A stretch of 64,000 nucleotides of DNA from an uncultured Bacteroidales bacterium. Its GTDB lineage: Bacteria; Bacteroidota; Bacteroidia; Bacteroidales; UBA932. The position numbers and the translations under genes are program-made. How positions within the stretch are numbered: position 1 is the first letter of the stretch; the number at the start of each line of letters is the position of its first letter. Of the stretch, positions 42,841 through 55,160 are shown piece by piece. The notes beneath the pieces are model-generated. The model saw nothing but the letters and a program-made list of their open reading frames with translations, searched no databases and had not been told where the DNA came from. Location: assembly GCA_947167015.1 (NCBI GenBank), contig CAMVGM010000002.1:1-64000 (forward strand), read 5' to 3'.

Positions 42841-42916
42841 TGACCGAGGCTGCATAGAAAGTTCCTATTCACTCTTTCTGAGATCTTACTTTCCGCAGTC
42901 TCTTTTTTTATTGACC

Positions 42917-44737
42917 ATGGATCCGATTCTCATACAGTTCTTCAAGGCGGCCGTCCCCGGCGCCCCCGCGGCGGCCGACCCCGCCAAGTTGCAGGCGGAC
43001 GCGTTCAAATGCGGCTTCATCATCCATCCGGACCTCCTCAACACCGACGTGGAAGCCTTCATCGCCCGCCAGACGGCGGATCCCAACGCCACGTTCTACA
43101 AACGCTGGGAGGACATGATGTCGAAGGACCGGCTGGAACTGCTGCTGGACCAGATCCGTCATTACGCCACCACCTACGGGACCCGCTTCACGCAGGAGGG
43201 AAACGGCTACGTGCCCAACGAAGGGGCCGAGGCGCCGGAATTCCAGGACCTCACCCTCATCGCCCCCATCACGGAGGAAGAGCTCTACGCCCGCTGCCTG
43301 AAACTGCTCGAGAGCGGCGCGGCGCTCAAAGGCGAGACCGTGAAGGTGCTTTGCAGCGCCGTCACGGACCATCTTTCCGCACATCCGGAAGAGACGTTCG
43401 ACATCGATTCCGTCCGCAACCGCGAGGCCCTGAGCATCCTCTGCAAGACGCTGGGCCGCCGGCCTTCCGCCCCGGTCGACCTGCTGCGCTACATCGTCTA
43501 TGAGGCCACCGGGGAGACTTTGCTCATCCAGTCGCAAGACATGCTGGAACGCATCCGGCAGAATGCGGACAAATTCGATTTCCGCCAGCTCAGCGAGGCG
43601 GAAACCGCGAAACTGGCCAGCATTTTCTACCGCTTCAAGAACCTTTTCCTCGCTTTCCGCACGCAGGAGAACTATGACGCCAAGCGGACCATCTGCATCC
43701 AGAAAGCATCCGTCAACCGAGCGGTAATCAACCACTTGCGCAGGATGGCCCCGAAGCAGCACAAACCGATGCGCCCGGGTTTCTGGGAGGGCCTGCTGGC
43801 CGCTTCCGTCAGCGAGGAAGAACTCCGCGCCCGATTGGACGGCGTGTCCAATTTCAAGCTGGTCACTCTGCTGCAGACCATCCGCGAGCGGCTGCTGACC
43901 GGAACGGGCGAGCCCGCGATGTACATCATCCGCAACGGCAGCGTCTGGCTGAAAGACGCCCCGCAGCGGGAAGACCGCAAGGCCTACCTGGAGATGCTGG
44001 AGCGCGTACTCCGCACCCGGCTGGTGGAAAGGCTTTCAGCCAAGGCCTGCAGCGTGCGTTTCCCGGAGGAACTCATCCTCGCCTGCCCCGCCTCGGAAAA
44101 GACTTTCGTGGGAAACCTCCCCTTCGGCTCCCGCTACCGGATGAGCGACCACAACTTCTTCGGCATCTACTGGCGGAAGGAGTGGGGCTGCCACGACTTC
44201 GACATCAGTTTCGTCGATTGGTCCGGTGCCAAGACCGGCTGGAACGCCGCCTACGATACCGGCGAGACCTTCTACTCCGGCGATATGACCGATGCCAACC
44301 CGGAAGCCGCCGAACTGATGTACTGCAAGGAGGGCTGCCCGGACGGCACCATCTACTGCAACCGCTTCAATGGCAAAGAAGGCAGCCGCTTCCGCTTCTA
44401 CGTCGGACGGCAGAAAATCGTGAAAGTGAGGGAAAACTATATGGTGGATCCGAACGCCAAGGTCATCGACGAAGAATTGGTGTCCGACCGGCGGGAGAAG
44501 ATGCTCGCCATCGTCAGCGGCGGATGGATCTTCCTGATGGACCTCGCCACGGGCCGGGGCCGCGTGTCCTCCGGCAAGGATGCGGGAAAGAAGGAAGCCG
44601 TCATCGCCCGCAAGGCGCGCTGCTTCCTGTCCCTGCGCGAACTCCTGCTGGAGGCCGGATTCACGGAAACGGCCGATCATCCGCAGCTTGACCTCACGGA
44701 CCTGAAGAAAGATACGCTCCTGGCGCTGTTCAGCTGA
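42917..44737 (+). CDS. Uncharacterised 606-aa cytosolic protein
   Basis: No signal peptide; start at MDPILIQFF (42917); conserved-looking C-terminal block SDHNFFGIYWRKEWGCHDFDISFVDWSGAKTGWNAAYDTGETFYSGDMTDANPEAAELMYC. Confidence 0.8.
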   Translation: MDPILIQFFKAAVPGAPAAADPAKLQADAFKCGFIIHPDLLNTDVEAFIARQTADPNATFYKRWEDMMSKDRLELLLDQIRHYATTYGTRFTQEGNGYVPNEGAEAPEFQDLTLIAPITEEELYARCLKLLESGAALKGETVKVLCSAVTDHLSAHPEETFDIDSVRNREALSILCKTLGRRPSAPVDLLRYIVYEATGETLLIQSQDMLERIRQNADKFDFRQLSEAETAKLASIFYRFKNLFLAFRTQENYDAKRTICIQKASVNRAVINHLRRMAPKQHKPMRPGFWEGLLAASVSEEELRARLDGVSNFKLVTLLQTIRERLLTGTGEPAMYIIRNGSVWLKDAPQREDRKAYLEMLERVLRTRLVERLSAKACSVRFPEELILACPASEKTFVGNLPFGSRYRMSDHNFFGIYWRKEWGCHDFDISFVDWSGAKTGWNAAYDTGETFYSGDMTDANPEAAELMYCKEGCPDGTIYCNRFNGKEGSRFRFYVGRQKIVKVRENYMVDPNAKVIDEELVSDRREKMLAIVSGGWIFLMDLATGRGRVSSGKDAGKKEAVIARKARCFLSLRELLLEAGFTETADHPQLDLTDLKKDTLLALFS

Positions 44738-44751
44738 TAGGCAGTCCCCGC

Positions 44752-47076
44752 TCAGGGACGGCAGAGCAGGACCTGGTCCAGCACGACGCCTTCATCCAGC
44801 GCCGTCAGCGTGAGCCGGTGCGTCCCCTCTTTTCCCAGTTGCAGCAGGGTGTCGCGGACGGCCTGGTTGTTCAGCACGTTCTCCTTCCATTCCTCACTGC
44901 GGTCGTAAGTTTCATAAGCGAATGCCACGTGATCACCGCCGTCCACGGAAAGGGTGAAACGGAGTTGCGGGCTGCTGACCGGGTGCGTGGGGACCATCCG
45001 CACGGAGACGACGGCCTCCGCCGCTTCGGTGCTGAAACTGAAAGACACGCTCTCGCCGGGCGTGAGCATCGCGGCACCGCCCTCGTAACCGAGGCCCTCA
45101 CAAGGCGTGAGACGGCCTTTCCCGTCAACGGCATTCCACTTGGCAATGACCGCGGGAGCCGCCGGAAGCGGAGCGTCCGCCTGCACGTGCGGGTATTTCT
45201 GGAAGACCGGCAGCCTGCGGGGCGCCATATTCATCATCCCCTTCCATTTCCCCTGGTTGTACCGGTCCGTCAACGCCTCGATCGCGTCGTAGGCCGCATC
45301 CGCTTCAGCCCAGTCGGCAAGACCGTGCCGGGCCAGCTGGGCGGTGAGTGCTTTCTCATTCATCTTGGCCGCCGCCTGCACGGGATACTGGACGAGGTGA
45401 TAGTACGCGGTCTGGTGGTCCTCAGGAACCAGCGAGGCGCAGTTCTCCACCTGGTCGTACAAGCGGGCGAACTGGTCCATACGCGTCCGGATCGTCGCTT
45501 CATCCCAAGGGAGGTCTTTCACGATGCGGTAGGCCGGGTCCCGCTCTTCCTCGCGCGTATTGCCCATGAATTCGGGCTTGCGGATATAGGAAAGACGGTA
45601 GTACTCCACCAGGGAAGGGAGGACGGCGGATGCGACTTTCCGGCCGAATTCCCGTGTCAGGAAGGCCTTCAGGTGGGCCTGCCAGCCGCTGGCGCGGACG
45701 GCGTCGATGTCCCAGGCCATATCCATAATAAGTTCGATCTGGTACTCTTCCGGCTTGATGTCGCCGACGTTGAGGATCCAGGTCTGGCGGATGCCCTTGT
45801 CGTAGGCCATCCCCATCTGCTGCAGGATCAGGGCCGGGGAATAGGCGCCCAGCCACAGGTAGTCGTGAGGGCGGCCCCAGTAGGAGACGTGGTAGTAGAC
45901 ACCGTTGCCGCCCGGACGGTTGCGCTCGGCTTCGGTCGGGAAATGCCGGATGTAGCCGTAGTTGTCGTCGCACCACATCAGGGTCACGTCCTCGGGGACC
46001 TCCAGGCCTTCGTTGTAGGCCAGGAGCACTTCCTTATAAGGGATGAACACCTGCGGGATCCGCGTCACGTCAGGGTCGACCAGCTCGGAGAGCATCTCCC
46101 GCTGCACGGAGATCACCTCCGCCAACGCTTCCTTCTGCTCCTCAGGCGTATCGGCGCCGCTCATCGGTCCGTCGTGGATGCCGCGCATCCCGAGCGTGTA
46201 CATGATCTCCTGGTCCTTGACCGAAGCGACCCGCTCCCGCCAGAAATCCAGCACCTTGTCGCGGTTGGTGATGAAGTTGTACTCCCCTTCTCCGCGTACG
46301 CGCCACTCGCCGTTGGCGTTGCTGGCCATCGGCTCGCAATGCGAAGTGCCGATGTAGATTCCGTATTTTTCAGCGACGGCCCGGTTCTCTTCCGTCAGGA
46401 AGAACGGGACCGAACAACCGTGCATCGCCGGCCAGAACGAATTGGCACGCAACCGGAGCAGCAGCTCGAAAATCCGGGCGTGGGTCTCGGGACCGATCCG
46501 GCCGGGAACATCCGTCGGTTCCAGCGTCCGGGTCACCCAGGGCACGAAGGCGAAGTCTTCGTCATTGATAAAGATCCCCCGGTACGCGACGTCCGGTTCA
46601 CCGACCTGCCTGAAACCCTTTTTCAGACGGAAATCCTTCCGGGAGGACGGGGTGCAGTCCGCCCACCATTCCCAGGGAGAGACGCCCAGCTTGCGGGACA
46701 GTTCCATCAGACCGTAGGCGACGCCGTGGCCGTCGCTGCCCGCGATCAGCAGCTGCCCGGAAGGCAATACCTTCAGGACGAACGCCTCGTGGTGTCCGGC
46801 GATGGCGGCGACGTCCGGGTCCGCGGCAAAGTCCGGATGGTCCGCCAGGACCAGACGGAGCTTCCCGTCCTGCTGAACCTCGCTGACCGATGCGGAAAGC
46901 ACCTGCCGGAGGTCTTTTCCGAAGATTTCCAGCGCGGTTGTCGCAATGGGTTCATCCACATTGAGTTCCACCGTCACATCTTCCGTGCTCTTCAGCACGA
47001 ATCCCGGCCCCGTCCCGCACGCGGCGGCGACGAGCGCAAGCGACAGAAACAGAGCAAGCCGTCTCATGACTGGCAT
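44752..47076 (-). CDS. Glycoside hydrolase family 115 (alpha-glucuronidase-like), lipoprotein
   Basis: Lipobox LVAAAC; LSRKLGVSPWEWWADCTPS, YRGIFINDEDF, TLGMRGIHDGPM, WCDDNYGYIRHFPTEAERNRPGGNGVYYHVSYWGRPHDYLWL. Confidence 0.9.
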   Translation of the reverse strand: MPVMRRLALFLSLALVAAACGTGPGFVLKSTEDVTVELNVDEPIATTALEIFGKDLRQVLSASVSEVQQDGKLRLVLADHPDFAADPDVAAIAGHHEAFVLKVLPSGQLLIAGSDGHGVAYGLMELSRKLGVSPWEWWADCTPSSRKDFRLKKGFRQVGEPDVAYRGIFINDEDFAFVPWVTRTLEPTDVPGRIGPETHARIFELLLRLRANSFWPAMHGCSVPFFLTEENRAVAEKYGIYIGTSHCEPMASNANGEWRVRGEGEYNFITNRDKVLDFWRERVASVKDQEIMYTLGMRGIHDGPMSGADTPEEQKEALAEVISVQREMLSELVDPDVTRIPQVFIPYKEVLLAYNEGLEVPEDVTLMWCDDNYGYIRHFPTEAERNRPGGNGVYYHVSYWGRPHDYLWLGAYSPALILQQMGMAYDKGIRQTWILNVGDIKPEEYQIELIMDMAWDIDAVRASGWQAHLKAFLTREFGRKVASAVLPSLVEYYRLSYIRKPEFMGNTREEERDPAYRIVKDLPWDEATIRTRMDQFARLYDQVENCASLVPEDHQTAYYHLVQYPVQAAAKMNEKALTAQLARHGLADWAEADAAYDAIEALTDRYNQGKWKGMMNMAPRRLPVFQKYPHVQADAPLPAAPAVIAKWNAVDGKGRLTPCEGLGYEGGAAMLTPGESVSFSFSTEAAEAVVSVRMVPTHPVSSPQLRFTLSVDGGDHVAFAYETYDRSEEWKENVLNNQAVRDTLLQLGKEGTHRLTLTALDEGVVLDQVLLCRP

Positions 47077-50015
47077 TTGATCAGCGCCTTACCCGTGCGC
47101 CCGTCGATGCAGATCTGCAGGTCTTCCCCGAAATGCACCTGACGCAGGAACTGCGTCTCGAACTCGGCCGGCATCGCGTCCAGCCGGGCGGCGTCGAAAC
47201 ACTCGCCGTTGCGGGCGAACGGATTCACGTTCACGTAGCCCGCGTTGAAGGAGGTCATGTTCTGGAAGAAATGCGTGCCCTGGCTGGGATCCACGCGGAA
47301 GTGTTCCAGGCAGCATTCCACGATGGCGCGCGCCTCGGAGATGTCGCTCCACTGCACGGGCACGCCCAGCGTCGGGATGCTGGAGCCCCAGCGGCCGTAG
47401 CCCACCAGCACGTAATTGCGGCCCTCGGCACGCATCCGGTTGTTCAGTTCCCGGAGCTCCGCGGCCATCTGCCGCGTCTTCAGCGTATCGAAGCCGGACT
47501 CGCGCAGGTACACGATGTCGCGCACCCCCTTGATCCAGCCGGGGCCGATGGCACTGCCGGAAGAGACGATGGCGTCGCTCTCGTCCACGCCGCTCCAGTC
47601 CACCTCGGCGCCCAGCCCGTCGGAAGAGATGGGCCGCACCTGCAGGACGTTGAAGATGGCGGGGCTGTCGGAAGGCACGTCCAGGTTGGCGGCGAACTCG
47701 ATCTCCACGCCGCAGCGGACCTCCCGCTGCATGATCTCCAGCAGTTCGTTCAGGATGCCGGCAAGCGGGAAGGTGTTATATTTCAGGATGTGCGCGAAGG
47801 TGATGAATTTCGGTCCGGCCGGCACCGGGGAATCCACGATGCGCTGGTTCTCGTAGTCATAGGTGGAGACCACCTTGGAGAAGGTACGGAACGCGCCGCA
47901 CTCCGTGACCGGAATGCGCTCCAGGTTGACCGCGTCGTCCACCGAAGTCTTGAACTTGTCCGGCTGCAGGTCCAGGGCGAACATCGCCTGCTGGGTCTCG
48001 GTCATCGTCAGTTCGGGCGTCGATGTCTGCAGGACGTTGCGCGGATACTTCGGCGAGAAGCGGAGCACCTGGTCGCCGTCCACGACGGCCTTGCCTAGGC
48101 CGAAGGCGAGCTTGGCCACGCCGTCTTCCGGCGTCTCGTAGCCCAGCGGATAGAAGTTCACCGAACGGGCCACGCCCGACAGGGTCGGGAAGAAATAGCC
48201 GCGGTCCTCGCTGCCGCAGATCTCCTGCAGCACGATCGCCATCTTTTCCTCGGAAAGGACGTTCGCCGTAGCGGTGATGTAGCCTCTGGATGAGGCGAAA
48301 TACACGGAGGCATAGACACTCTTGATGGCCTTGGACAGCAAGCGGAGCTGCTGGTCCTCGTTCTCCGTGTGCGGGATCATATAGGTCGAATAGACGCCCG
48401 CAAAAGGTTGATAGTAAGAATCTTCCAATTTGGAAGAAGAGCGTACGGCGAGCGGCTTCCGCACATTGCGGATGAATACGCGCAGCGCCTCGGTCAGCTC
48501 CTGCGGAAGGGTGGACGCCACGAATTCCGACAGGATTTCGGCGTCCGTCAGGTCGGAGTTGATGACGAATTTCAGACCATTCTCCCGGATGAAACGGTCG
48601 AAGAATTCCGTGGTAATCACGAGGGTCCGCGGCACCAGCACGCGCACGTCCTCCCACTTGTCGTAGAGGTCGTATTTCTGCAGGATGTGGTTCAGGAAGG
48701 CCAGGCCGCGCGCCTTTCCGCCCATCGATCCCGAACCGACGCGGGCGAAGCGGATGGCGTCGTTGTAGGAGGCCGCATCGAAGCTCGCCACCACGCCGAG
48801 GCCCTGGCTGATCCGGTAGTCCCGGATCATCCGCAGGTTCATCTCGCGCACCTCGGCGACATCCTCGTCGGAATGGATGCGGATCGGCCGGAAGAGATCG
48901 CCGATTGAGAAGATGCCGCGGCCGTAGAACCAGCGGGAGATGTAGTTCCGGTTCACCAGGTCGCGCAGGGCGCCGTCGGACATCCGGGCCATCACCTGCT
49001 CGAATTCATAGAGGTTGTGCGCCCGGGCGGTCACCCGGCCCGTCTTGGGGTCGGTCACGATGAAATCGCCGAATCCGAACTCGCGCCCGATGTATTCCGA
49101 CACCTCCTGGGTGAGGGTCTTGGAGCGCTTGTGCACGAAACCAACGCCGAGCTGCGCGGCCACGGCACGCATGCTTTCCTGCGAAGACTGCATCAGGAAA
49201 GGCATGGTCGGGTTCTCCTTCCGGACCATGCGGCAGAGGTCGATGCCGGCGTCGCTCTTTTCCGTCTCCGGCTTGTCGCCCCGGTGCAGGACGAAGCCGA
49301 TGTCGGAAATGATGCCCAGGATGTTGTCCTTGTATTTCTGGTAATACTCGCAGGCCTCGTCGTAACACGTGGCCATCAGGATCTTGGGCCGGGCGCGCTT
49401 GCGGAGGAACTGCTGTTCCTCGTTGAGCGCGTCGCGCACCGCCTCGCTGTTCTGCTGGAGCACCAGCTTGTAGAGCAGGGGCAGGTAGGTCGAATAGTAG
49501 CGCACGGAGTCTTCTACCAAAAGGATGACGCGGGCGCCGGACTGCAGGCAGTCATGCTCGGCGTTGAGCTTGTCCTCGAGCAGCTTGATGATGGCGATGA
49601 GCACGTCCGTGGAGTTGTTCCAGCAGAAGACGTAGTCGATGCCCTCGTGGTCGTGGTCCGCGATTTTCTGATAGATCTCCCGGGAGAAGGCGCTCAGCAG
49701 GACGATCGGGGTGTCCGGCACGAGTTCCTTGGCTTTCACCGAGAAGCCGAACACGTCCAACTTGCCGACGTTGTACATCGTGATGATGAGGTCGAAAGCG
49801 TTGTCCCGTTCGAGGATCCCGAGGGCGTCCAGGGTGGACTCGGCCCGCACGATGGCGGGCGGGTTGCTCAGGTTGAGCTCGGCGTACTCCTGGGTGATCT
49901 GGGCTTCGATGTGTCCGTCCTCCTCGAGGGAGAAGCTGTCGTAGTTGTTGCAAACCAGGAGGATCCGGCGGATCCTCCTGGCCATCAATTTAGTATAATC
50001 CGTGTCGTTGCGCAT
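47064..50015 (-). CDS. Tandem receiver-like domains fused to a PPDK_N (PEP/pyruvate-binding) ATP-grasp domain
   Basis: 983 aa; two receiver-like modules (RRILLVCNNYD..., RVILLVEDSVRYY...IISDIGF...FVHKRSKT), then GSMGGKARGLAFLNHIL, AVRSSSKLEDSYYQPFAGVYSTY, VLQEICGSEDRGYFFPTLSG. Confidence 0.85.
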   Translation of the reverse strand: MRNDTDYTKLMARRIRRILLVCNNYDSFSLEEDGHIEAQITQEYAELNLSNPPAIVRAESTLDALGILERDNAFDLIITMYNVGKLDVFGFSVKAKELVPDTPIVLLSAFSREIYQKIADHDHEGIDYVFCWNNSTDVLIAIIKLLEDKLNAEHDCLQSGARVILLVEDSVRYYSTYLPLLYKLVLQQNSEAVRDALNEEQQFLRKRARPKILMATCYDEACEYYQKYKDNILGIISDIGFVLHRGDKPETEKSDAGIDLCRMVRKENPTMPFLMQSSQESMRAVAAQLGVGFVHKRSKTLTQEVSEYIGREFGFGDFIVTDPKTGRVTARAHNLYEFEQVMARMSDGALRDLVNRNYISRWFYGRGIFSIGDLFRPIRIHSDEDVAEVREMNLRMIRDYRISQGLGVVASFDAASYNDAIRFARVGSGSMGGKARGLAFLNHILQKYDLYDKWEDVRVLVPRTLVITTEFFDRFIRENGLKFVINSDLTDAEILSEFVASTLPQELTEALRVFIRNVRKPLAVRSSSKLEDSYYQPFAGVYSTYMIPHTENEDQQLRLLSKAIKSVYASVYFASSRGYITATANVLSEEKMAIVLQEICGSEDRGYFFPTLSGVARSVNFYPLGYETPEDGVAKLAFGLGKAVVDGDQVLRFSPKYPRNVLQTSTPELTMTETQQAMFALDLQPDKFKTSVDDAVNLERIPVTECGAFRTFSKVVSTYDYENQRIVDSPVPAGPKFITFAHILKYNTFPLAGILNELLEIMQREVRCGVEIEFAANLDVPSDSPAIFNVLQVRPISSDGLGAEVDWSGVDESDAIVSSGSAIGPGWIKGVRDIVYLRESGFDTLKTRQMAAELRELNNRMRAEGRNYVLVGYGRWGSSIPTLGVPVQWSDISEARAIVECCLEHFRVDPSQGTHFFQNMTSFNAGYVNVNPFARNGECFDAARLDAMPAEFETQFLRQVHFGEDLQICIDGRTGKALIKCQS

Positions 50016-50021
50016 ACTTTA

Positions 50022-51377
50022 TCAGACCAATCCCTGGTCCACCATCGCGTTGGCCACCTTGATGAAGCCGGCGATGTTGGCGCCCTTGACGTAGTTGATG
50101 TAGCCGTCCTCCTCGGTGCCATACTTGATGCAGGCGGCGTGGATGTCGGACATGATACGGTGCAGGTGCTCGTCCACTTCCTCGGAGGTCCATTTCTGGC
50201 GGATGGAGTTCTGGGTCATCTCCAGGCCGGATGTCGCCACGCCGCCGGCGTTGGACGCCTTGCCCGGCGAGTAGAGCATCTTCTTTTCCTGGAAGATGGC
50301 GATGGCTTCCGGCGTGGAAGGCATGTTCGCGCCTTCGACCACGCACCAGCAGCCGCCCTTCACCAGGTTCTCCGCGTCAGCCTTCTCGATCTCGTTCTGC
50401 GTGGCGCAAGGGAGCGCGATGTCGCAGGGGATGCGCCAGGGGCGCTCGCCCGGGAAGTACTGGGCCTGGGGGTACTTGTTCACATATTCCTTGATACGGC
50501 CGCGGCGGATGTTCTTGAGTTCGAGCACGAACTTGTGCTTCTCCTCATCCAGTCCTTCAGGGTCGTAGATGAAGCCGTCGGAGTCGGACAGGGTCACGAC
50601 CTTGGCACCCAGGCGCATCGCCTTCTGGGCGGCGTACTGGGCAACGTTGCCGGAGCCGGAGATGACGACGGTCTTGCCCTCGAAGCTCTCCTTGCGGGTG
50701 GCGAGCATCTCCTGGGCGAAGTAGCAGACGCCGTAGCCGGTGGCTTCCGTGCGGAGACGGCTGCCGCCCCAGGCGACGCCCTTGCCGGTCAGCGTGCCGG
50801 TGAACTCGTCGCGGAGGCGCTTGTACTGGCCGAACATGTAGCCGATCTCGCGGCCGCCCACGCCGATGTCACCGGCAGGCACGTCGGTGTCGGCGCCGAT
50901 GTGGCGCTGCAGTTCGGTCATGAAACTCTGGCAGAAACGCATCACCTCGGCGTCGGACTTGCCGCGCGGGCTGAAGTCGGAACCGCCCTTGCCGCCGCCC
51001 ATCGGGAGCGTGGTCAGCGAGTTCTTGAAGGTCTGCTCGAAGGCAAGGAACTTCAGGATGCTGAGGTTCACGCTCGCGTGGAAGCGGATGCCGCCCTTGT
51101 AGGGTCCCAGGGCGCTGTTCATCTGCACGCGGTAACCGCGGTTGATATGGATCTCGCCCTTGTCGTCGGTCCAGGGGACGCGGAACATGATGACCCGCTC
51201 CGGCTCGACCATCCGCTCAAGGATCTTGAGATCCATCAGATAAGGGTAAGAGGTGACATAAGGTGCTACACTTTCCACCACCTCCCGGACAGCCTGGTGG
51301 AACTCCTTCTCGCCAGGGTTGCGCGCGACCAGTTCATCCATGAAGCGGTCGACGTAGTTCTGAGTAAATTTGTCCAT
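50022..51377 (-). CDS. gdhA: NADP-specific glutamate dehydrogenase
   Basis: 451 aa; LPMGGGKGGSDFSPRGKSD, PAGDIGVGGREIGYMFGQYK. Confidence 0.96.
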   Translation of the reverse strand: MDKFTQNYVDRFMDELVARNPGEKEFHQAVREVVESVAPYVTSYPYLMDLKILERMVEPERVIMFRVPWTDDKGEIHINRGYRVQMNSALGPYKGGIRFHASVNLSILKFLAFEQTFKNSLTTLPMGGGKGGSDFSPRGKSDAEVMRFCQSFMTELQRHIGADTDVPAGDIGVGGREIGYMFGQYKRLRDEFTGTLTGKGVAWGGSRLRTEATGYGVCYFAQEMLATRKESFEGKTVVISGSGNVAQYAAQKAMRLGAKVVTLSDSDGFIYDPEGLDEEKHKFVLELKNIRRGRIKEYVNKYPQAQYFPGERPWRIPCDIALPCATQNEIEKADAENLVKGGCWCVVEGANMPSTPEAIAIFQEKKMLYSPGKASNAGGVATSGLEMTQNSIRQKWTSEEVDEHLHRIMSDIHAACIKYGTEEDGYINYVKGANIAGFIKVANAMVDQGLV

Positions 51378-53671: not shown

Positions 53672-53690
53672 TTCCTTTTTTATTCCCGAT

Positions 53691-55160
53691 ATGAAGAAAC
53701 TCATCATTACCCTTTTCATCGGCCTGACCTTCGCGCCATGCATCCGGGCCAACGGCGACCCTGTGATCGCCTATTCGGCCAACATCCGCTCCTGCAATCC
53801 CGTCCCGCTGAAGGTGTCGGAGGTGCAGGTGGTCCGCGAGGACCTCAACATCCGGGTGAGAATCCCTTACACGGAGGTGTCCGTGGTATACCGCCTCAAG
53901 AACAGCTCTGCGACGCCCATCCACGTGGACTACGGTTTCCCGGTGGACTACGGCGAAGACAAGGACAGCGCTCCCGGCACTTTCACGACCGACGAATGGT
54001 CCGCATCCCTCGCGGAAGCCGGCGTGCGCGGCCGCGCGGTGCGGGACGTGCATTTCCGGCTGGACGGCCGGGAACTCACCTGGACGCATGCCGATGAAAT
54101 CGTCAAGCTGGATGAGAGCTATGTGGACGAGGAGACCGGAGAGACCGTGGAGCTCAAGTGCAACCGCCTGTGGACCTACACGGTGCTGGACATCCCGGCC
54201 GGGGCGACGGTCACGCTGGAGGTGGATTATGCCGTGCTCTGCAACTGGAGCACCGGCCTGGGGTCACTGAATGCGTCTCCGCTGTCACGCTATTTCCCTT
54301 CGGACGGCAACTTCTACTACGATTTCACCCCGGCGCAGCATTGGGGAAACGGCAAAGCCGGCGAACTCGCCGTCAAGGTGGATTGTTCCGGACTGCCCGA
54401 CGCTTTCTTCAACGAGGATAGCCCCTCCGTCGCGGAAGGATGGATGAAGCGCAAGGGAAAAGTCTGGACGGTGAACGAAAAAAACCTGGATTTCGCCACG
54501 GCTGGTCCCCTGTCCGTCTATTTCTACAAGGACTATTCCGATGAAGACAGGCTCTTTCCGTCCTGGGGGGATCCGCTGAAGGACTGCGCCGTACCTTCCG
54601 CTGAATACCGGCTCTCCGTGTCCGCCTCACAGGACAGTTATCCCGCCTCCAACCTGCAGGACGGGGACCTTGCAACGGCCTGGGTGGCGCCGGGAGACGG
54701 CGTGGGAAGTACGGTCGAAATCGTTTTCCCGCAGCCCCGCCGCGTTTCCGACATCGCTCTCTGGAACGGCTACCACAAGTCCGCCTCGCTCTGGTCGGCC
54801 AACAGCCGGATCAAGCGCATACGCATGGAAATCACCCGGGCGGACGGGCATCAGGAATCCTGGGAAACCGACCTGACCCAATGGGAATGGGATTCACACT
54901 ACTTCACGCTGTACGACAGCCGCATACCCCGCTTCGGGGCGGTCTCGCTCCTGTCCGTGACGAACCTGGACCGGGACATCTACGGCCGGGAACTGGGCGC
55001 CGATGAAGAAGGCAACATCCAGTATGACAAGGTGTCCGCCGATGCCGAGAAAGTCACCGGCATACGCCTGACGGTACTGGAGACCACGCCCGGGACGAGA
55101 TACAAGGATCTCTGCCTGTCCGAGCTGGTCGTCCTGGACGGTTTCACAATCGTCGAGTAA
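53691..55160 (+). CDS. Exported protein with C-terminal NADase-type glycan-binding (discoidin-like) domain
   Basis: Signal peptide MKKLIITLFIGLTFA; SASQDSYPASNLQDGDLATAWVAPGDGVGSTVEIVFPQPRRVSDIALWNGYHKS. Confidence 0.75.
   Translation: MKKLIITLFIGLTFAPCIRANGDPVIAYSANIRSCNPVPLKVSEVQVVREDLNIRVRIPYTEVSVVYRLKNSSATPIHVDYGFPVDYGEDKDSAPGTFTTDEWSASLAEAGVRGRAVRDVHFRLDGRELTWTHADEIVKLDESYVDEETGETVELKCNRLWTYTVLDIPAGATVTLEVDYAVLCNWSTGLGSLNASPLSRYFPSDGNFYYDFTPAQHWGNGKAGELAVKVDCSGLPDAFFNEDSPSVAEGWMKRKGKVWTVNEKNLDFATAGPLSVYFYKDYSDEDRLFPSWGDPLKDCAVPSAEYRLSVSASQDSYPASNLQDGDLATAWVAPGDGVGSTVEIVFPQPRRVSDIALWNGYHKSASLWSANSRIKRIRMEITRADGHQESWETDLTQWEWDSHYFTLYDSRIPRFGAVSLLSVTNLDRDIYGRELGADEEGNIQYDKVSADAEKVTGIRLTVLETTPGTRYKDLCLSELVVLDGFTIVE

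Follow-up and report, generated by a model that had tools for sequence, protein, structure and literature searches.

The window, by which we mean the whole 64,000-nucleotide stretch of contig CAMVGM010000002.1 from an uncultured Bacteroidales bacterium, contains a gene for a 983-amino-acid protein (47064..50015, minus strand) directly downstream of gdhA (50022..51377, minus strand), its conserved neighbor, which encodes a glutamate dehydrogenase (GDH) of 451 amino acids. The junction reads ...GTC TGA TAAAGT ATG CGC..., which places the 6-nt spacer TAAAGT between the gdhA stop codon and the next start, as had been stated in a first reading of this DNA made from the sequence alone (the sequence-only reading). 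Because the ATG lies 6 nt past the gdhA stop, the two genes look operonic. At the other end, the start of the open reading frame (ORF) of a GH115 glycoside hydrolase gene (44755-47076, minus strand) overlaps the end of the gene by 13 nt. Farther out, the plus strand carries a 608-amino-acid ORF that matched nothing in Pfam at 1e-5 (42911-44734) and a gene for a protein that looks secreted and has an NADase_transloc F5/8-type domain at its C terminus (53688-55157). A frameshifted 3′ fragment of the gene lies on another contig of the same genome (C28; L115:3975-4311). This fragment, a decayed duplicate or an assembly chimera, matches the window gene at 78% of amino acids and at 89.6% of nucleotides over 212 bp.

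Domain architecture of the 983-amino-acid protein

We parsed the ORF with Pfam and an AlphaFold2 model built from 51 relatives, which was good throughout (pLDDT of 88). The sole strong domain match was to the PPDK_N ATP-grasp domain (PF01326, E = 3.9e-36) at residues 430-799 (47619..48728). When the whole model was searched against the PDB with Foldseek, it matched the ATP-grasp domain of rifampin phosphotransferase (PDB 5hv1 and 5hv6; E = 9e-12), the closest solved one, and the tandem receivers of PleD. From the N terminus, the minus-strand gene thus encodes a first receiver (REC1, residues 14-157; 49545..49976), a second receiver (REC2, residues 160-313; 49077..49538), a linker that, in certain relatives but not others, weakly resembles DUF5752 (residues 314-420; 48756..49076), the ATP-grasp domain, and a C-terminal domain (CTD, residues 800-983; 47067..47618). 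The placement of PPDK_N after two receiver-like domains in the sequence-only reading is therefore correct.

Neither receiver reached the curated Pfam cutoff for Response_reg, and their assignment is based on fold and residues; only REC2 had a match, which was below threshold (21.5 bits versus 30.2). REC1 is an aspartate-less receiver, that is, a PleD-like REC fold without the acceptor aspartate. In the window protein, M80 occupies the aspartate site, N23 and N24 the acidic pair, and W132 the lysine site. The degeneration extends to every relative in the 111-member alignment, with methionine, threonine, or valine at position 80, no acidic pair, and tryptophan replacing lysine. REC2, on the other hand, has a complete receiver active site, including the acidic pair, the phospho-accepting aspartate, the Ser/Thr residue, and the lysine. 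Its residues E168, D169, D238, S277, and K296 were invariant in 51 aligned members, and D238, S277, and E168 were invariant in all 111, including the presumed phospho-acceptor D238 (111/111; codon at 49302..49304). The alignment thus upholds the earlier claims that the first receiver cannot be phosphorylated and that the second retains its acidic pair, aspartate, and lysine.

The residues that characterize the ATP-grasp domain of pyruvate phosphate dikinase (PPDK) are a lysine in GGKA, an arginine in VRSSS, a glutamate in EIEF, and the glutamine and arginine of LQxRP. All of the expected residues (K434, R525, E771, E773, Q792, and R794) were invariant across 111 sequences with identities down to ~36%, and the enzyme part therefore looks active. 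The other half of a PEP synthase or PPDK is absent. Neither the swiveling phosphohistidine domain (PEP-utilisers, PF00391) nor the PEP-binding TIM barrel had a Pfam match in the 983-amino-acid protein, and just 184 residues remain after the ATP-grasp domain. Since both are missing, the protein is neither a PEP synthase nor a PPDK, as the sequence-only reading had concluded. Pfam, hhalign, and Foldseek were all negative for the swiveling domain, and the structure prediction which that reading had called for produced REC-REC, ATP-grasp, and CTD modules and no complete PEP synthase fold. Its description of the protein as lacking the phosphotransfer machinery holds for the swiveling domain and the barrel, but it is too strong as a whole, because the ATP-grasp site is intact and the CTD carries an invariant histidine. 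The substrate-binding and swiveling histidine domains of rifampin phosphotransferase are likewise absent, and the NCBIfam model RIF_Ptrans_rph scored 16 bits against a cutoff of 999.

The CTD had escaped the sequence-only reading altogether. Modeled alone, residues 800-983 reached a pLDDT of 91, indicating a domain of its own, and its invariant residues are shared by all paralogue types aligned, including the conserved GxGRWG and SxGxHFF motifs. The histidine of the second motif, H915 (codon at 47271..47273), is invariant in every aligned member and paralogue, and in the model it lies within SQGxHFFQN at the N terminus of a helix; it could take part in catalysis. The CTD had no match in Pfam, in the PDB (Foldseek), or in a BFVD fold search. 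It appears in no paper among the literature that we searched, and it seems to be a new domain. The order of its strands and helices and the histidine at a helix start resemble the swiveling domain, which made a diverged version of that domain a candidate. We rejected it because hhalign against a profile of 25 PEP-utilisers domains returned a probability of 0.15% and the Foldseek search was negative. In the positive control, comparison of the ATP-grasp part with PPDK_N returned 79.6%. We also rejected the earlier suggestion that a stand-alone histidine domain elsewhere partners with the protein. None was found near the gene, and the sole PEP-utilisers match in the genome belongs to an ordinary PPDK gene on another contig.

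Family distribution and paralogues

Proteins with the REC-REC-PPDK_N-CTD architecture were found in 172 of 198 Bacteroidales genomes, with named members in Parabacteroides distasonis, Phocaeicola massiliensis, and a Prevotella. Members also occur in other classes of the Bacteroidota, at 37 to 42% identity and often in two copies. Because full-length orthologues at 37 to 92% identity are spread across the phylum, the domain pattern is beyond chance. Depositors have labeled the family protein "PEP/pyruvate-binding domain-containing protein," and we found no characterized orthologue in the literature searched; a guess that BT1971 of B. thetaiotaomicron might be one was discarded, as BT1971 is a catalase. 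In phage and plasmid collections, matches were confined to "plasmid" records of named gut Bacteroidales and to unannotated human fecal records.

Several paralogues differ at their termini. One form without receivers has a GAF-like N terminus (assigned by inspection only), followed by PPDK_N, the HFF-bearing domain, and a nucleotidyltransferase. Paralogues of 580 and 1060 amino acids retain the equivalent of H915 and have no receivers. PPDK_N islands beside an NAD-type-like GDH (L121:4805-12881 and L118:5913-10837) contain a 580-amino-acid PPDK_N-HFF protein and a 1060-amino-acid form with a C-terminal nucleotidyltransferase; in the first of these islands, they adjoin the receiver form. Other Bacteroidales paralogues of 1150 to 1260 amino acids (L195:4864-8346, L197:4507-7971, and L199:5632-9420) have, ahead of the two receivers, an additional sensor-like N-terminal extension that was judged GAF-like by eye, and those at L195 and L197 are divergent to GDH.

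Linkage to glutamate dehydrogenase

The sequence-only reading had named gdhA merely as a neighbor. The adjacency was right, but it understated the relationship, since GDH is the conserved partner. Neighbor clustering placed GDH within three ORFs of the family gene in 48 of 101 diverse loci, compared with 7 of 101 for the next unrelated family. We then compared family loci with PEP-utilisers loci (PPDK, PEP synthase, and EI) fetched by the same phylum search, counting GDH within ~1.5 kb. GDH was present in 23 of 29 family loci and in none of the 29 control loci (P ~ 1e-10). Among loci of the window's own clade with enough flanking sequence, gdhA was directly upstream within 500 bp in 52 of 70.

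This linkage takes four different forms. We placed 106 members on a tree; of the 102 genes that could be assessed, 52 had GDH within 1 kb, in arrangements that were co-directional upstream (n = 30), co-directional downstream (n = 9), divergent (n = 10), or convergent (n = 3). The GDH-linked genes fell on all main branches and required at least seven changes of arrangement among them. Linkage has thus been kept or re-formed through rearrangements, and an inherited operon alone does not explain it. About half of the members lack a GDH within 1 kb, including all of a clade of ten Bacteroidales members. Family-I-type GdhA was encoded in 38 of 38 tested genomes with the family and in 25 to 26 of 38 without it, percentages that ignore kinship among the genomes. 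Since GdhA is encoded in many genomes that have no family member, the family is not a general requirement for GDH. In other genomes, the GAF-like paralogue adjoins a different, NAD-type-like class of GDH. The pairing with GDH appears in no paper among the literature searched.

We also considered residue 369 of GDH as a modification site. It is tyrosine in 53 of 70 GDHs from genomes with the family versus 2 of 25 from genomes without it (phenylalanine in 23 of 25). We rejected this candidate, which was the best of ~450 alignment columns and was not significant after correction for the tree.

Candidate sources of receiver input were found at some family loci. In two lineages (L126 and L130; L132), the family gene has genes for a PAS/HisKA_3 histidine kinase and for a LuxR-type regulator as neighbors, which fits the idea of input through the receivers. 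No histidine kinase adjoins the window gene; the genome has 17 histidine-kinase-type ATPase matches, with none inside the window.

Discussion

Judging from sequence comparisons, the 983-amino-acid protein is probably a dedicated controller of the neighboring GDH. In a more specific form, to which we give roughly even credence, it would be an ATP-grasp enzyme under receiver control, modulating GDH activity post-translationally and coupling ammonia assimilation to a two-component signal. A histidine kinase would phosphorylate D238 of REC2, while REC1 would provide an unchanging interface by analogy with the tandem receivers of the PleD type. Phosphorylation of REC2 would then open or close the ATP-grasp domain, which would transfer a phosphoryl or other ATP-derived group to GDH or to a small GDH ligand, with H915 of the CTD as a carrier or acid/base in the transfer. 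The effect on GDH may be activation or inhibition.

Adjacency to GDH could instead reflect a shared pathway through glutamate and 2-oxoglutarate rather than direct modification. The protein might be a receiver-gated ATP-grasp kinase or ligase acting on a GDH product or substrate and co-located for metabolism only. The usual phosphoryl acceptors of ATP-grasp enzymes are carboxylates or small molecules, relatives with PPDK_N include rifampin phosphotransferase and the PigC/RedH ligases, and KorA/KorB-like oxidoreductase genes lie near a few family loci. Still, the protein has no substrate domain like the known ones, and the pairing follows the class of GDH, with the receiver type beside GdhA and the GAF-like type beside the NAD-type-like GDH. 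This correspondence suggests protein partners over a shared metabolite, and we regard a small-molecule enzyme as rather unlikely.

The combination of an invariant H915 at a helix N terminus and an invariant D238 in one chain also raises the prospect of a cryptic relay, in which ATP would phosphorylate H915 in a highly diverged swiveling domain and the phosphoryl group would pass to D238, making the protein a self-contained, noncanonical histidine kinase. The ATP-grasp domain of PPDK and PEP synthase does phosphorylate a histidine. However, hhalign and Foldseek reveal no relationship between the CTD and swiveling domains, and the 580- and 1060-amino-acid paralogues keep the histidine without receivers, which leaves such a relay improbable. 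Least credible, and in our estimation very improbable, is a remnant of PEP synthase or PPDK without ATP chemistry that acts solely as a scaffold or transcription-related regulator. While the missing catalytic half and the degenerate REC1 would accord with a pseudoenzyme, the ATP-grasp residues have stayed invariant across all 111 sequences, and the protein has no DNA-binding domain.

The proposed GDH controller shares parts with several known systems. Like PEP synthase and PPDK, it has a PPDK_N ATP-grasp domain with the lysine, arginine, glutamate, and glutamine motifs, but it lacks their swiveling domain and TIM barrel. Rifampin phosphotransferase joins its ATP-grasp domain to a substrate domain and a swiveling histidine domain, whereas our protein has N-terminal receivers and an unrelated CTD. 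Its REC-REC fold is like that of PleD-type tandem receivers, with one receiver inactive and one intact; here, however, the inactive receiver comes first, and the output is an ATP-grasp enzyme rather than a GGDEF cyclase. A survey of receivers lists pyruvate phosphate dikinases among the enzymatic outputs enriched in Asp-less receivers (PMC4395418), so fusions of this kind were already known. The passage of that survey on these outputs mentions no function, GDH link, or CTD.

One older observation may bear on the family. According to its title as cited in PMC4539542, a 1996 study reported that one or more trans-acting genes downstream of gdhA in Bacteroides thetaiotaomicron affect GdhA activity (Baggio and Morrison, J Bacteriol 178:7212). 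Two genomes of a single genus (L175 and L177) have the family gene convergent with gdhA and 106 to 328 bp downstream of it, with a second GDH nearby. The genus appears to belong to the Bacteroidaceae, given 80% identity to the Phocaeicola protein. This position would make the family gene a natural candidate for the 1996 factor. The factor was reportedly carried on a ~3-kb downstream segment, similar in size to the family gene; supplied in trans, the segment is said to have restored the activity of GdhA in E. coli while leaving transcription unchanged. We know of no later identification of the gene. Going by the title, the reported segment, and synteny in two genomes, a member of this family is perhaps the activity factor.

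More tentatively, and with some doubt, PPDK_N and the HFF-bearing CTD may together define a novel enzyme class, found throughout the Bacteroidota, that modifies GDH in an ATP-dependent manner. Its members would be gated by receivers or GAF-like domains, each matched to its own class of GDH, and would switch GDH chemically via H915, much as adenylylation does for glutamine synthetase. Bacteroidales, which are dominant in the gut and rumen, assimilate ammonia largely through GDH, and to our knowledge the control of this enzyme in the order is poorly understood. An ATP-grasp protein that has receivers, occurs in nearly all Bacteroidales, and tracks GDH genes would supply a candidate for the 1996 GdhA activity factor and would give nitrogen assimilation a post-translational point of control.
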